A stretch of DNA of 64,000 bases from positions 1 through 64,000 of the forward strand of contig JAIOIH010000049.1 in assembly GCA_019912395.1 (NCBI GenBank). The letters are read 5' to 3'. Position numbers and translations under genes: made by a program. Position 1 is the first letter of the stretch. Each line of letters begins with the position of its first letter. A model generated the notes under the pieces. That model searched no databases. It saw nothing but the letters and a program-made list of their open reading frames with translations, and was not told the origin of the DNA. Below, in pieces: positions 53,366 to 58,409 of this stretch. Source of the DNA: Flavobacteriales bacterium (GTDB taxonomy: Bacteria > Bacteroidota > Bacteroidia > Flavobacteriales_F > PHOS-HE28).

Positions 53366-53830
53366 CTATTCCCAGAACACGTCCTCGGGACGTCCGCTCA
53401 CGGTGGGTTGATGCGATTCCGCATGTGCTTTCCCCACTTCCGCAAGCTGGTCCGCAGTGGCCACCTTCTGGATGCGATCGAAAAGCCGACGCTCCTCAAA
53501 ACGGATATGCGCCTCCAGCTCCTCCTCGATCAGTGAAAGGGCCACCACCACATCGCTGCGACCGTTGATCAAGCGCTGCAGGCGCCGGTGCTCGGCCATG
53601 GCCCTGCGCACGTCGGGATGGTCATATCCCAGGATCGGGAAGAGCACGTTCTCCTCCAGATCGAAATGCGGCTTGAGATTCACCTTCAGGAATTGCCGAC
53701 AGTAGCGACGGATGCGGGAGGGCGCCACGCCTTTCGCGGTGCCCACCCTGATCTTCCAACACAGCAGGAGCCCGTCGTGATGCTCGCGGCTGATCCCTTG
53801 CAGCTCAGGAAGCCGATCAATTGGCGGCAT
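53366..53830 (-). CDS. hemerythrin-domain protein
   Basis: A 154-aa four-helix protein with hemerythrin-like iron ligands: ISREHHDGLLLC (His-His-Asp), LKPHFDLEENVLFP, MAEHRRLQRL and EAHIRFEERRLFDRI. Likely binds a di-iron site and O2 or NO, or buffers iron. It overlaps the ric gene by 14 bp, so it is the fourth gene of the NO/Fe-S stress operon. Confidence 0.85.
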   Translation of the reverse strand: MPPIDRLPELQGISREHHDGLLLCWKIRVGTAKGVAPSRIRRYCRQFLKVNLKPHFDLEENVLFPILGYDHPDVRRAMAEHRRLQRLINGRSDVVVALSLIEEELEAHIRFEERRLFDRIQKVATADQLAEVGKAHAESHQPTVSGRPEDVFWE

Positions 53831-54551
53831 GCGCTAAGCTCTTCTCCAGCGCGATCGCGCGGGGGAACATGATGTTGTTCTCCAAGTGGATGTGCAGGTG
53901 CAGGTCCTCCTCGAATTCCTTGAGCATGTTGAACGCGGTGGCGTAGGTGGCACAACCATCGGTCGGCATGGTGAAGCCATCGCTCACGGCCTTCATCCGC
54001 TCAAAGCGCTCACCCTCGGCGTTGTGATCCTCCATCATCATGTTCACGGGGTTCTCCACCGTTCCGAAGTGCGGAACCTTGAACGCCTCACCGGAGCGTT
54101 CGCTCCTGGCGAGGTTGCGCACGAAGGGGAACAGCACCAGCTCCTCCTTCTTCATGTGGGCGGCCATGGCCCCCACGCAAGCGTTGAACTCGTCGTAGAG
54201 GGTGAACAGCTCCGGATGGCGTTCGCCATGCACCTTGCAGAGCTTCGCCAAGTACTGCTGAATGATCGGTCCGCGCTCCTCCACATAGCGGTGATGCACG
54301 GTCTCCACATGGTCGGCGAGTTGATCCAAGGGCCAGGTGCGGGCATCCTCGCCGCTCTTGGCATCACGCGCCAGGAGCTTGGTGATATCCTCGGCCAGTT
54401 GGTTCTGATCGATGTTCTTATTTGCGCAGACCTCCTGCACGGAGCGACCTCCCTTGCAGCAGAAATCGATGCCGTATTTGGTGAGCACGGCGGCTGCGCG
54501 ATAGTCCTCAGCGACAATGGACCCCACGGTCCGTTCGGGTGTGATCTTCAT
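53817..54551 (-). CDS. ric: iron-sulfur cluster repair di-iron protein Ric/ScdA (YtfE)
   Basis: A 244-aa protein. The N-terminal ScdA-N/DUF542 region carries TVGSIVAEDYRAAAVLTKYG and IDFCCKGGRSVQEVC; the C-terminal hemerythrin domain has HVETVHHRYVEE-type (DHVETVHHRYVEER), HGERHPELFTLYDEF, AHMKKEELVLFPF and HLHIHLENNIMFPRA. Ric restores Fe-S clusters after nitrosative or oxidative damage. Its ATG overlaps the stop of the small membrane gene (ATGA), and its 3' end overlaps the hemerythrin gene. Confidence 0.93.
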   Translation of the reverse strand: MKITPERTVGSIVAEDYRAAAVLTKYGIDFCCKGGRSVQEVCANKNIDQNQLAEDITKLLARDAKSGEDARTWPLDQLADHVETVHHRYVEERGPIIQQYLAKLCKVHGERHPELFTLYDEFNACVGAMAAHMKKEELVLFPFVRNLARSERSGEAFKVPHFGTVENPVNMMMEDHNAEGERFERMKAVSDGFTMPTDGCATYATAFNMLKEFEEDLHLHIHLENNIMFPRAIALEKSLAHAAN

Positions 54552-54793
54552 GATCGTGTTGTTTGATTGTTGTTCGCCGTTTCACCGGCGAGGGTTGATG
54601 TGCGGTTGAACTGCCTGGTGCCAAGCACGATGAGCGCGGAAACCTGCAGTGCTTCCACTGCCGTGCCGGGGGTGCGGAAACCCATGCCCGCATAGCGATG
54701 GATCCGCCAAGAGGCCAGGTAGGCCATACCCACCAGAAGACCCGGCCATGTGAACACCTCGACCAAAGGGACAGGGTGGTTCACGATCAACAT
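54548..54793 (-). CDS. 81-aa small membrane-associated protein in the NO operon
   Basis: Frame MLIVNHPVPLVEVF ... to TGA at 54548. It has one hydrophobic segment (VFTWPGLLVGMAYLASWRI) and a second weak one (VEALQVSALIVLGTRQF). Both ends overlap neighbours by ATGA: its start overlaps the haemoglobin stop and its stop overlaps the ric start. That packing makes it very likely a real gene. Family not recognised; it could help localise or regulate the detoxifying proteins. Confidence 0.7.
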   Translation of the reverse strand: MLIVNHPVPLVEVFTWPGLLVGMAYLASWRIHRYAGMGFRTPGTAVEALQVSALIVLGTRQFNRTSTLAGETANNNQTTRS

Positions 54794-55227
54794 CAGCGGA
54801 TGGGTGTCGTACCGGCACGGGCATGCTCGGCCATTCTGAACTGGAACATCTGCGCCATCATCACCGAGCGCTGCTTGGCCTCCTCGGCCGTAGGGCCGGT
54901 AAAGAGCTCGTTCAGCGTGGTATGGAACAGTTGCAGCCAACGGTCGAAGTGGGCCTTCCCCAACGGGAGCATCGAGTGTGGCATGAAGGGGCTGCCGGTG
55001 TACGTATGCTGGCCCAGCAGGATGGTCTGCCAAAAGGTGTAGAGCTTGGCCAGATGCTCCGGCCAACGGTCCTGGATGGTAGCGTTGAAGATCGGTCCCA
55101 CCAACTCATCCAAGCGGGCCCGGCCATAGAACGTATCCACCAGCAGGCGCACGTCCTCAATGGTACGGATGTCCCCCTTCCGGTGCTGTTCTTCCGCAGG
55201 TTTCTCCGTCTTGGACCTCTCCATCAT
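54793..55227 (-). CDS. group III truncated haemoglobin
   Basis: A 144-aa globin: IEDVRLLVDTFYGRARLDEL, GPIFNATIQDRWPEHLAKL, FWQTILLGQHTYTGSPFMPH (the F-W and HxxL features of group III), and GKAHFDRWLQLFHTTLNELF with the proximal His. Group III globins bind O2/NO and are linked to NO defence. It is the first gene of a four-gene minus-strand operon, with the -7 box TAATTTG about 25 nt upstream and a dyad at 55281-55296. Confidence 0.9.
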   Translation of the reverse strand: MMERSKTEKPAEEQHRKGDIRTIEDVRLLVDTFYGRARLDELVGPIFNATIQDRWPEHLAKLYTFWQTILLGQHTYTGSPFMPHSMLPLGKAHFDRWLQLFHTTLNELFTGPTAEEAKQRSVMMAQMFQFRMAEHARAGTTPIR

Positions 55228-55252
55228 CTCCTATGCCTTCGAACGTGGATCG

Positions 55253-55260
55253 CAAATTAC
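55253..55260 (-). promoter_or_regulatory. -7 box GTAATTTG for the NO operon
   Basis: Minus strand GTAATTTG, 25 nt upstream of the haemoglobin ATG; TAnTTTG-like. Confidence 0.4.
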
Positions 55261-55280
55261 CGGCTCTTGCCACGACACGT

Positions 55281-55296
55281 CCTGACGAACGTCAGG
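55281..55296. promoter_or_regulatory. dyad operator candidate CCTGACGAACGTCAGG
   Basis: Two exact 7-bp half sites, CCTGACG and CGTCAGG, around AA. The CTGAC-N4-GTCAG shape is that of Crp/Fnr-family sites. Its centre (55288.5) is about 41 bp upstream of the start predicted from the -7 box, the usual class II activator place. It overlaps the fdhD stop codon. Confidence 0.5.
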
Positions 55297-56167
55297 CCAC
55301 CTGTCCCTCGGCTCCCGCCCCGCCGGCATAGAGGTTGAAGCGATCCCGTTGCAGGAAGCCGATGAGCGTGAGCCCACCTTCCTTCGCCAGCTGCACGGCC
55401 AACGATGAGGGGGCCCCTACCGCTGCCATCAATGGGATGCCGGCCATGAGGCATTTTTGCACGAGCTCGAATCCGGCGCGACCGCTCACCAATAATTGGT
55501 AATTGTCCGTTGTCCTTTGTCCGGGGGCGGTCACCGAGTTCGTGCCACCTGAAGTGAGCAGTGCTCCGATCACCTTGTCCACCGCGTTGTGGCGGCCCAC
55601 GTCCTCGCGCAGGAGGAGCAACTTCCCCTCGCCATCGAAAAGGGCCGCTGCATGGTTTCCACCGGTGTGCTTGAAGACCGTTTGGGCTTCGCGCATGCGG
55701 CCCGGCAAGGTGGTGATCACTTCCGCGTCGATGGGGCCGAAGGGTGTGATCTCCCTTGCGCATTGCGTGCGAACCGCGTCGATGCTGGTCTTTCCGCACA
55801 CACCGCAACTGCTGCTGGTGTAGAAATTGCGCTGCCACTTCGCCGGATCGAGCTCCACGGAGGGATGCAGTTCCGCGCGTACCACGTTGCCGCGCTCCTC
55901 TTTTTTCACGTTCTCACAATGCTCCACGCGCACCACTTGTGCCGGATCGGTGATGATGCCCTCGGTGAACAGGAAGCCGAGCACTAGTTCGGCATCGTGG
56001 CCCGGTGTGCGCATGGTGACGCTGAGGGGCACTTCCTTGCGGTGGTCAAGCGGGCCATGGCCAAGACGGATCTCCAATGGTTCCTCGGTGACGAGAATAT
56101 CATCCACCTCGGAGACCTTACCCTGGTCGACGCGTGAGATCTGGATCGGTGTGACCGGCGTTCTCAT
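55292..56167 (-). CDS. fdhD: formate dehydrogenase accessory sulfurtransferase FdhD
   Basis: A 291-aa protein. The signature cysteines are in SSSCGVCGKTSIDAV (Cys121 and Cys124); other conserved parts are VTMRTPGHDAELVLGFLFTEG, LFDGEGKLLLLREDVGRHNAVDK, and LLVSGRAGFELVQKC. FdhD passes sulfur from IscS to the Mo/W-bis-MGD cofactor so that formate dehydrogenase is active. No formate dehydrogenase genes are in the window. It starts 6 bp after the tag stop, so the two genes form one unit. Confidence 0.95.
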   Translation of the reverse strand: MRTPVTPIQISRVDQGKVSEVDDILVTEEPLEIRLGHGPLDHRKEVPLSVTMRTPGHDAELVLGFLFTEGIITDPAQVVRVEHCENVKKEERGNVVRAELHPSVELDPAKWQRNFYTSSSCGVCGKTSIDAVRTQCAREITPFGPIDAEVITTLPGRMREAQTVFKHTGGNHAAALFDGEGKLLLLREDVGRHNAVDKVIGALLTSGGTNSVTAPGQRTTDNYQLLVSGRAGFELVQKCLMAGIPLMAAVGAPSSLAVQLAKEGGLTLIGFLQRDRFNLYAGGAGAEGQVA

Positions 56168-56173
56168 TGGTTG

Positions 56174-56746
56174 TCAGGCTGTTCGCCGCCAGCAGGTCAC
56201 CAGATGGTCGTCCACCATGCCGCAGGCCTGCATGAACGCATGGACGATGGTGGTGCCGACGAATTTGAAGCCGTGCTGCTTGAGGTCCTTGCTCATGGCA
56301 TCGCTTTCCGGGGATGAGGCGGCCACGTCCACCGTCCTTTTAGGTCGGTTCACCTTGGTCTTGTGGCCGACGTGCTTCCAGAGGAATCCGTCGAAGGCTC
56401 CGGGACCGTTCTCCATGATCTTCAAGTAGGCCTGCGCGTTGCTGATGGAGGCTGCCACCTTGGCCCGGTTGCGGATGATACCGGGGTCGTTCAGCAACCG
56501 GGTAACATCCTTCTCTCCGTACCGCGCGATCTTCTCCACATCCCAGTTGTCGTATGCCTTCGCATAGCTCTCCGTACGGATCAGGATGGTGTACCAGCTC
56601 AATCCTGCTTGGGCCCCATCGAGGATCAGTTTCGCAAAGAGCTTGCGGTCATCGTGCTCCGGCACGCCCCAAACCTCATCGTGGTACCGCATGTAGATGT
56701 CATCCTTCAGGCACCACGGACAACGGATCTTTTCATCCGATTTCAT
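56174..56746 (-). CDS. tag: DNA-3-methyladenine glycosylase I
   Basis: A 190-aa enzyme. MKSDEKIRCPWCLKDDIYMRYHDEVWGVPEHDDRKLF-type N-terminus (zinc Cys pair CPWC), FAKLILDGAQAGLSWYTIL and KIARYGEKDVTRLLNDPGI are typical; HGFKFVGTTIVHAFMQACGMV and HLVTCW supply the rest of the zinc site. It excises 3-methyladenine from DNA. Met23 of a longer frame is used since E. coli Tag starts at the same place. Upstream of fdhD. Confidence 0.94.
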   Translation of the reverse strand: MKSDEKIRCPWCLKDDIYMRYHDEVWGVPEHDDRKLFAKLILDGAQAGLSWYTILIRTESYAKAYDNWDVEKIARYGEKDVTRLLNDPGIIRNRAKVAASISNAQAYLKIMENGPGAFDGFLWKHVGHKTKVNRPKRTVDVAASSPESDAMSKDLKQHGFKFVGTTIVHAFMQACGMVDDHLVTCWRRTA

Positions 56747-56936
56747 GCGTGCGAAGTTCGCCATAAGTTCATCAGGGTCCCCGCCGTGGGGCCGTAGATC
56801 ATCATCGAGCAATGGCCAAGGGGTGCGTCCGAACGGGACCCAACGTTTTCCGGAACCCCGTGATCGGCCGTTGGCTGTTGACCCAACATGCAGCAGGTCC
56901 TCCGGATGTCCCGGCCCCCTCGGTGGAATTCCACGC

Positions 56937-58409
56937 TCAGTACACGATCAATCGCGGCTCGCTCATTTCCTCCATCGCGTACTTCAGGCCTTCGCGGCCC
57001 AACCCGCTGTCCTTGATGCCGCCGTACGGCATGCTGTCGACGCGGAAGCCGGGAATGCCGTTGATGATGATGCCGCCGACCTCCAGTTCCTCATGCGCCA
57101 TTTTCACGTGGGCGAAATTGTTGGTGAAGACGCCTGCCTGCAACCCGTAGTTGCTGTCGTTGACGCGAGCGATGCCCGCGGCAAGGTCCTTTACGGGCTC
57201 CACGATGGTGATGGGACCGAATACCTCCGCACGATCCACTTTCATGGAATGCTTGGTGCCGGTGAGCAGGGTCGCGGCAAAGACATTGCGTTCGGCATCC
57301 ACGGGCTTTCCGCCGGCAAGCAGTTCGGCACCGCCCTTCACCGCTTCATCCAGCCAGGAGCTGATGCGCTCGAAGTGACCCTTGTCGATGATCGGGCCCA
57401 CGGAAACTGCGGGATCACTGGGGTCACCGGCCTTCAGCGCGTTGAACTCCTTCACCAGCAGGTCACGGAATTGCTCGAACTCCTTTTGCACCACGAAGAT
57501 GCGCTGGGTGCTGATGCAGGTTTGTCCGGCGTAGAGGTTGGCCCCCATGGCAACGCTCTTCGCGGCTGTGGCGAGGTCGGTGCCTTCGTCGATGATCACC
57601 GCCGCGTTCCCGCCCAGTTCAAGTGCCACTTTCTTCTTGCCGCAGATCGCTTTCAAATGCCAGCCCACCTTATCGCTTCCGGTGAAGCTGAGCATGGCCA
57701 CGCGCTCGTCCTTCACCAACAATTCAGCGATGGAATTGCCACAGAGCAGCACGTTGAACGCACCCTTCGGCCAGCCGATCTCCTCCATCATTTTCCCCAA
57801 TGCCAATGCGCTGAGCGGGGCTTGAGGCGCGGGCTTCAGCACTACGGGGCACCCCACGGCCATGGCCGGTGCCACCTTGTGCAGCACCAGGTTCAACGGG
57901 AAATTGAACGGTGTGATCGCGCCGATGACCCCGATGGGAAAGCGCTTGGTGAAGGCTGTTTTACCCGTACCGGCATCAAAGTCGATCGGTGTCATTTCGC
58001 CCGTGAAGCGCAGTGCTTCCGCAGCAGCGGTGCGAACGGTGGTGATGCAGCGCGCGATCTCGCCCTTGGCATAACCGATCGGTTTTCCACCTTCCTTCAC
58101 GATCAGCATCGCAAGGTCGTCCGCATGCTTTCCGATCAATTTGGCCAGTGCTTCCAGCTTTTCGCTACGGTCCCCGGCGCTCAGCTTATGCACGACGGCA
58201 CGGCTGGCATGGGCGGCTGCGATGGCCTCCTCCATTTGCGCCGCAGTGGCGTGCGGAATGCGGGCCAGCTCCGTGCCGTGGTACTTGTCCACCACGGAGT
58301 TGAAGCTGCCGTCACCTTCCTTGGTCCACGCGCCATTGATGAAGTTGGCGGGGCTGAACAAATGGTCCATGACTTGAACCTTTTTGGGGGATGCGAGGGA
58401 CTGGGACAT
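56937..58409 (-). CDS. NAD(P)-dependent aldehyde dehydrogenase
   Basis: A 490-aa ALDH. FNGA-like INGAWTKEGDGSFNSVV at the start, ITPFNFPLNLVLHKVAPAMAVG (NAD-binding), LSFTGSDKVG, catalytic Glu in KKVALELGGNAAVI and catalytic Cys in AGQTCISTQRIFV, then VEVGG-like LEVGGIIINGIPG. Likely oxidises a short or branched aldehyde; the family resembles semialdehyde/lactaldehyde dehydrogenases, substrate unclear. A possible link to GABA metabolism with gabT is remote (26 kb). The -7 box TAAATTTG ends 4 nt before the ATG. Confidence 0.94.
   Translation of the reverse strand: MSQSLASPKKVQVMDHLFSPANFINGAWTKEGDGSFNSVVDKYHGTELARIPHATAAQMEEAIAAAHASRAVVHKLSAGDRSEKLEALAKLIGKHADDLAMLIVKEGGKPIGYAKGEIARCITTVRTAAAEALRFTGEMTPIDFDAGTGKTAFTKRFPIGVIGAITPFNFPLNLVLHKVAPAMAVGCPVVLKPAPQAPLSALALGKMMEEIGWPKGAFNVLLCGNSIAELLVKDERVAMLSFTGSDKVGWHLKAICGKKKVALELGGNAAVIIDEGTDLATAAKSVAMGANLYAGQTCISTQRIFVVQKEFEQFRDLLVKEFNALKAGDPSDPAVSVGPIIDKGHFERISSWLDEAVKGGAELLAGGKPVDAERNVFAATLLTGTKHSMKVDRAEVFGPITIVEPVKDLAAGIARVNDSNYGLQAGVFTNNFAHVKMAHEELEVGGIIINGIPGFRVDSMPYGGIKDSGLGREGLKYAMEEMSEPRLIVY

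Follow-up and report, generated by a model that had tools for sequence, protein, structure and literature searches.

FixJ is composed of a receiver and a LuxR-type HTH and is separate from FixK; HcpR, DNR and NnrR are single-component regulators, and FNR senses oxygen by its own Fe-S cluster. Removal of the greenhouse gas N2O is the work of clade II nosZ, which is carried by Bacteroidota, among others. In Bradyrhizobium, low oxygen leads FixK2 to activate nos through a box at −40.5 (PMC5582078), which is a close working analogue of the case described below. The motif is given, in the sections used of a further source, as wyTTGACnnnnGTCAArw for delta HcpR, as CTTGATnnnnATCAAG for DNR and as GTAACnnnnGTTAC for Bacteroides HcpR2, the last being listed as a difference from the motif found here (PMC1274295).

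The locus considered here belongs to a window of 64,000 nucleotides, the whole stretch of DNA that was analysed, from a Flavobacteriales genome of the PHOS-HE28 family. We consider it likely, from sequence comparisons, that a dyad in this window is a class II Crp/Fnr operator whose activator would most probably be a receiver-cNMP-HTH_Crp fusion protein, whose gene in this genome lies at C68:9561-10628. Like Bradyrhizobium FixL-FixJ-FixK2, this candidate system combines a PAS kinase related to FixL with a Crp/Fnr effector and TGA-N6-TCA half-sites. It differs in that receiver and effector form one 356-aa protein, the outer base of the box is mostly C or A and not T, the promoter has a Bacteroidota −7 box and the equivalent of FixL R220 is missing in most kinases of the family; because FixJ and FixK are one protein here, we do not file it as FixLJ-FixK. 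As with HcpR, DNR and NnrR, FNR-like dyads are located before NO genes (here globin-RIC, norC and nosC), but the best-linked protein has a receiver and a partner kinase, and the regulon is wider than NO; since this regulator is not single-component, we do not class the system with DNR or HcpR either. An anaerobic regulon and the N4 between TGAY and RTCA are shared with FNR, whereas the receiver domain suggests phosphorylation.

The dyad upstream of the globin-RIC operon

The features of the locus, all on the minus strand, are as follows.

55281..55296, minus strand: putative Crp/Fnr-type operator dyad, CCTGACGAACGTCAGG exact in the window, minus-strand reading CCTGACGTTCGTCAGG
55252..55260, minus strand: −7 box, TAATTTGC (55259-55252) overlapping GTAATTTG (55260-55253), 22-23 bp below the dyad core
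55247, minus strand: predicted transcription start, computed from the −7 box position
54793..55227, minus strand: globin, first gene of the operon (PF01152, 4.8e-9)
53817..54551, minus strand: RIC/ScdA-type protein, ScdA_N and Hemerythrin domains (PF04405, PF01814)
53366..53830, minus strand: hemerythrin-like protein (PF01814, 1.5e-10), overlapping the end of the RIC gene
55292..56167, minus strand: fdhD, the upstream gene (PF02634, 2.4e-60)

The dyad sits between fdhD and the globin, RIC and hemerythrin-like gene set, with the TGA stop codon of fdhD inside its left half-site. The exact CTGAC-N4-GTCAG form that had been read from the sequence alone is seen exactly at 55281-55296; its two TGAY half-sites are separated by N4, the core TGAC-N4-GTCA being at 55294-55283. 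The palindrome by itself is not significant: the window contains 10 16-mers with seven paired bases per arm and a 2-nt centre, while 20 mononucleotide shuffles give a mean of 4.9, so that such palindromes are not rarer than chance there. This chance-level count is a point against an operator, and the dyad is taken as real because of its conservation, not of its rarity.

Of 45 family genomes searched with the globin protein, 40 gave a match, and the nine globin loci with at least 67% identity, our own included, were defined as close orthologues. The dyad is present upstream of globin in all nine, with the full TGAY-N4-RTCA core in eight and one mismatch (TGAA in one half) in L009, and RIC follows globin in each of them. 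The gap between dyad and box is 23 bp in eight of these loci and 24 bp in L012. The fdhD gene lies upstream in six and was not found in L009, L012 and L013, where the dyad is kept, which makes it independent of the fdhD reading frame. Of nine further, more distant globin loci (L028-L036), the full dyad is present in seven and a version with one mismatch in L032, and L030 has none; in several of them the left half overlaps the stop codon of a different upstream gene. Judged by these comparisons, the dyad is a conserved promoter element. As for the 12 globin paralogues (L016-L027), the dyad is found only in L017 (TGACAATGATCA, 23 bp, TATTTTTG); most of the others, whose start follows directly on an upstream reading frame or overlaps it, may lack a separate promoter.

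The −7 box of sigma-A in Flavobacterium psychrophilum, TAnnTTTG, occupies −12 to −5; a box of the variant form TAnnTTGY, ascribed to an alternative sigma factor, is found at the same place (PMC9723704). This placement, combined with the 23-bp gap, gives a start at 55247 and puts the dyad centre (55288.5) at −41.5; computed from the −7 box and the predicted start, the centre is at −41.5 or −40.5. The start near 55247 and the centre at about −41.5 proposed in the sequence-only reading are thus recovered from the published box placement, and the predicted start would place the dyad at a class II activator position. The globin boxes (TACCTTGC in the orthologues, TAATTTGC in the window) fit the TAnnTTGY variant, and having TAnnTTGC instead of the canonical TAnnTTTG counts against the preferred explanation. 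The TAnnTTGC form, ascribed to SM5 in F. psychrophilum, is found in 9/9 globin-RIC loci (window 55252-55259 and L008-L015), unlike the boxes of nosC, norC and korA, which are TAnnTTTG-like. Neither a sigma-70-like promoter nor a terminator-like site was detected between 55000 and 55600, and there was no Rfam family match in 54000-57000.

Recurrence of the motif in the genome and the family

The exact CTGAC-N4-GTCAG form occurs at two places in the 4.13-Mb genome, as does its reversed-pattern control. A strict YTGACN4GTCAR search (two places, equal to the control) at first suggested that there was no regulon; it was dropped, the pattern being too tight. The second exact dyad, at C22:101734-101747, lies directly before korA, and TATCTTTA follows it at 22 bp. 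The motif arrangement used in the following is TGAY-N4-RTCA, 22-24 bp and a −7 box, searched in the own genome as TGAYNNNNRTCAN{21,25}ANNTTKG. With this pattern, 12 rows at 11 places were obtained, contig C68 accounting for six of the places, and the genes directly below are norC-norB, a cytochrome c gene followed by nosZ, two small membrane protein genes and the gene of a 627-aa protein. NosZ is of the Sec-dependent type (TIGR04246, 922.9 bits for a cut-off of 625), and the norB assignment is based on a COX1 match and the c-type cytochrome neighbour. Matches at malate dehydrogenase (C19) and a 126-aa ORF (C62) are possible further sites; those on C11, C14, C39 and at C68:83900, in ORFs or without a fitting gene, are probably due to chance. 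Two outcomes had been named beforehand as refuting the operator, namely that the motif occurs only once in the genome or that it lies in a transcribed non-promoter place. Neither applies: one more exact copy stands before korA, the degenerate motif is found again at promoters and, among the nor and cytochrome genes that had been suggested for a check, it precedes norC-norB and nosC-nosZ of this same genome.

The 627-aa protein (L052:4079-5962, corresponding to C68:102079-103962) has the dyad and box directly upstream of its gene and no Pfam or NCBIfam match. The two small membrane proteins on C68 (L053:627-1070 and 1734-2153), each with a dyad and box, have no family matches; similar sites are present in G023, and a relative of the first protein has one in G013.

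A reversed-pattern control of the gapped searches returned 0 matches per genome, for about 1 to 5 expected by hand estimate; it was not relied on, and half-site spacing and box distance were therefore taken as controls. The nosZ gene is present in 43 of the 45 genomes, and the motif with its box precedes the cytochrome gene upstream of nosZ (nosC) in 26 of the 30 loci fetched. Two of the four misses are cut by contig ends (L100, L118), and the other two have dyads without a standard box (L108, L113). When the half-site spacing was varied at the nosZ loci, 4 bp gave 26 loci and the other spacings 0-2. The motif was found in 12 of 19 norC-norB rows, with L070 and L077, among the seven misses, beginning at a contig end. 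The 9/9 conservation at globin and the norC and nosC motifs together support the Crp/Fnr site, at a predicted class II distance, that had been proposed before the NO operon.

Candidate regulators

Four proteins of this genome have a cNMP domain, and the one that is best linked to the motif is the fusion protein, which answers the suggestion of the sequence-only reading to look for a Crp/Fnr regulator. It consists of a receiver, a cNMP domain and HTH_Crp_2, and is present in 43 of the 45 family genomes (E of 1e-30 or better). Its recognition helix, TATESLIR, is invariant in the 39 genomes examined and has E at 181 and no R at 180, a combination expected to go with TGA without a preceding G, according to the sections used of PMC1274295. 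The acid, Asp and Lys motifs of the receiver are found in 39/39 fusions, and the Thr/Ser motif is unmatched in one (G043). Ahead of the gene are those of a cysteine-dioxygenase-like protein and a 402-aa histidine kinase. A dyad, a 23-bp gap and a box precede this operon, about 1.8 kb upstream of the fusion gene, in 36 of 39 genomes; the exceptions are L211, which is cut, L215, where the arrangement is absent, and L226, without a good box. Under the spacer test, the count at the fusion operon is 35/39, with at most 1 for other spacings.

The same arrangement extends beyond the family. At 69 loci of fusion relatives in other Bacteroidota (L243, taken as a family member, was omitted), 88 sites were found in 44 loci, compared with 0 to 8 for other half-site spacings and 17-32 sites for box-distance windows away from 18-25 bp. 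The 23-bp gap is seen in 69 of the 88 sites, many of which lie directly before the kinase gene. The helix class could be parsed in 53 of the 69 loci. Nine of them (L285, L288, L291, L296, L298, L299, L301, L305 and L306) have a helix ending in SR instead of IR, with three sites near the fusion gene; this scarcity of the motif is counted against the fusion as the activator. Two other findings are held against it as well: the fusion operon of this genome has an imperfect motif (TGATGAAGATCA, box TATCCTTG), and the fusion had no match in the drafts G015 (91% complete) and G031 (69% complete). The nosC motif is present in both drafts.

In our best reading of these sequences, the system would be autoregulated and FixL/FixJ-FixK-like, with the FixJ receiver and FixK fused, and would govern a low-oxygen regulon. 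Falling oxygen, the presumed signal, would lead the FixL-like kinase to phosphorylate the receiver of the fusion, and a fusion dimer would bind TGAY-N4-RTCA centred near −41.5 and touch RNA polymerase at a promoter that has a −7 box only. The targets switched on would be globin, RIC and hemerythrin, the NO and N2O reductases, korA and the kinase-fusion operon itself, whose promoter carries the same site and would thus be autoregulated. What the sequences show directly is the site with its spacing and conservation, the shared motif, the invariant recognition helix and the phosphorylation residues of the receiver; the identity of the binding protein and activation by it we infer.

The main rival to the fusion is a separate Crp/Fnr protein (C68:20327-21034, 235 aa, helix YESVIR), which would bind the dyad as a DNR-like sensor of NO or redox state. 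It belongs to the same superfamily, with E at 181 and no R at 180, its similar helix is compatible with the same sites, and its gene shares a contig with nos, nor and narGH-like genes. Its patchy distribution (at least 53% identity in 17 of 45 genomes) nevertheless makes this an unlikely choice: the nosC motif is kept in ten of 26 genomes without a 235-aa match above 30% identity (G007, G008, G009, G011, G015, G016, G021, G027, G038 and G041), and the globin site is also kept in G042 without such a match. The fusion was found in nine of these ten genomes, as fragments only in G016 and G021, and not in G015. Furthermore, dyad and box are absent from 19 of the 22 scanned loci of the 235-aa protein itself (L122-L143), and of the three positive ones, L137 and L138 have the hit at a locus end and L136 has a poor box. 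The earlier proposal of an NO-responsive regulator of the DNR/HcpR type is supported as to the Crp/Fnr superfamily and the NO genes below the motif, but less so as to a dedicated NO sensor, the best-linked protein being the receiver fusion with its FixL-like kinase.

We give little credence to binding by another cNMP-domain protein of this genome, whether the small Crp protein at C4:19954 (helix PESLSR), whose close orthologues (72% or more) occur in five of 45 genomes, or the CRP-like protein at C66:19009 (helix PREVVTR), whose R at 180 is expected to read TGTGA and not CTGA, according to the sections used of PMC1274295. It is hardly credible that the dyad instead terminates the fdhD transcript as an RNA hairpin or is a palindrome due to chance: its overlap with the stop of fdhD, the 6-pair stem folded by both strands and the ten palindromes of that size in the window speak for this, but the search at 55000-55600 found no terminator-like site, the dyad is conserved at a fixed distance from the −7 box even without fdhD, and the motif is found again at other promoters.

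Likely signal and putative regulon content

For the PAS domain of the kinase associated with the fusion, the top matches among solved structures are FixL haem PAS domains (1e-17 to 1e-15). The position corresponding to the haem-ligand histidine of FixL is kept in 38/38 family kinases and in 17/17 kinases parsed outside the family (17 of the 69 loci). The position that corresponds to R220 of FixL is Arg in only 9 of the 38, so that haem and oxygen sensing are not assured. Among the matches listed for other genomes, sampled in 20 regions and not counted by gene, the genes directly below the motif code for 2-oxoacid:acceptor oxidoreductase, pyruvate:ferredoxin oxidoreductase (PFOR), NadA and tyrosine phenol-lyase, and for CcoG, CcoI-like metal ATPases, universal stress proteins (Usp) and flavodoxin; CcoG has no match in the present genome. 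Together with korA in this genome, these genes resemble a low-oxygen regulon that takes in the NO and N2O genes, which makes oxygen the likelier signal, as we infer from gene content. NO acting on the same haem is a possible alternative.

No description of this system and no paper naming the nosZ switch in Bacteroidota was found in the open-licence literature, the former as judged by titles and abstracts. In a CRP/FNR study of an anammox reactor, a Flavobacteriales homologue is regarded as MalR-like, and nosZ goes unmentioned in the part used here (PMC8510549). We lean, by a modest degree, towards the broader view that a FixL-like kinase with a receiver-Crp fusion is a major autoregulated low-oxygen switch across Bacteroidota and that, in the PHOS-HE28 family, it directly activates clade II N2O reductase, NO reductase and globin-RIC, so that N2O removal there would answer to oxygen and not to a dedicated NO sensor. 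The fusion offers a FixK-like effector directly under receiver control and, with a defined motif, a promoter geometry and a candidate regulator, the control of clade II nosZ becomes testable in cultured relatives; those with the fusion include Chitinophaga, Fulvivirga and Winogradskyella. The gene that opens the fusion operon (L049:7804-8349, PF05995) is the cysteine-dioxygenase-like one, which places an oxygen-using thiol enzyme in the putative oxygen-switch operon.
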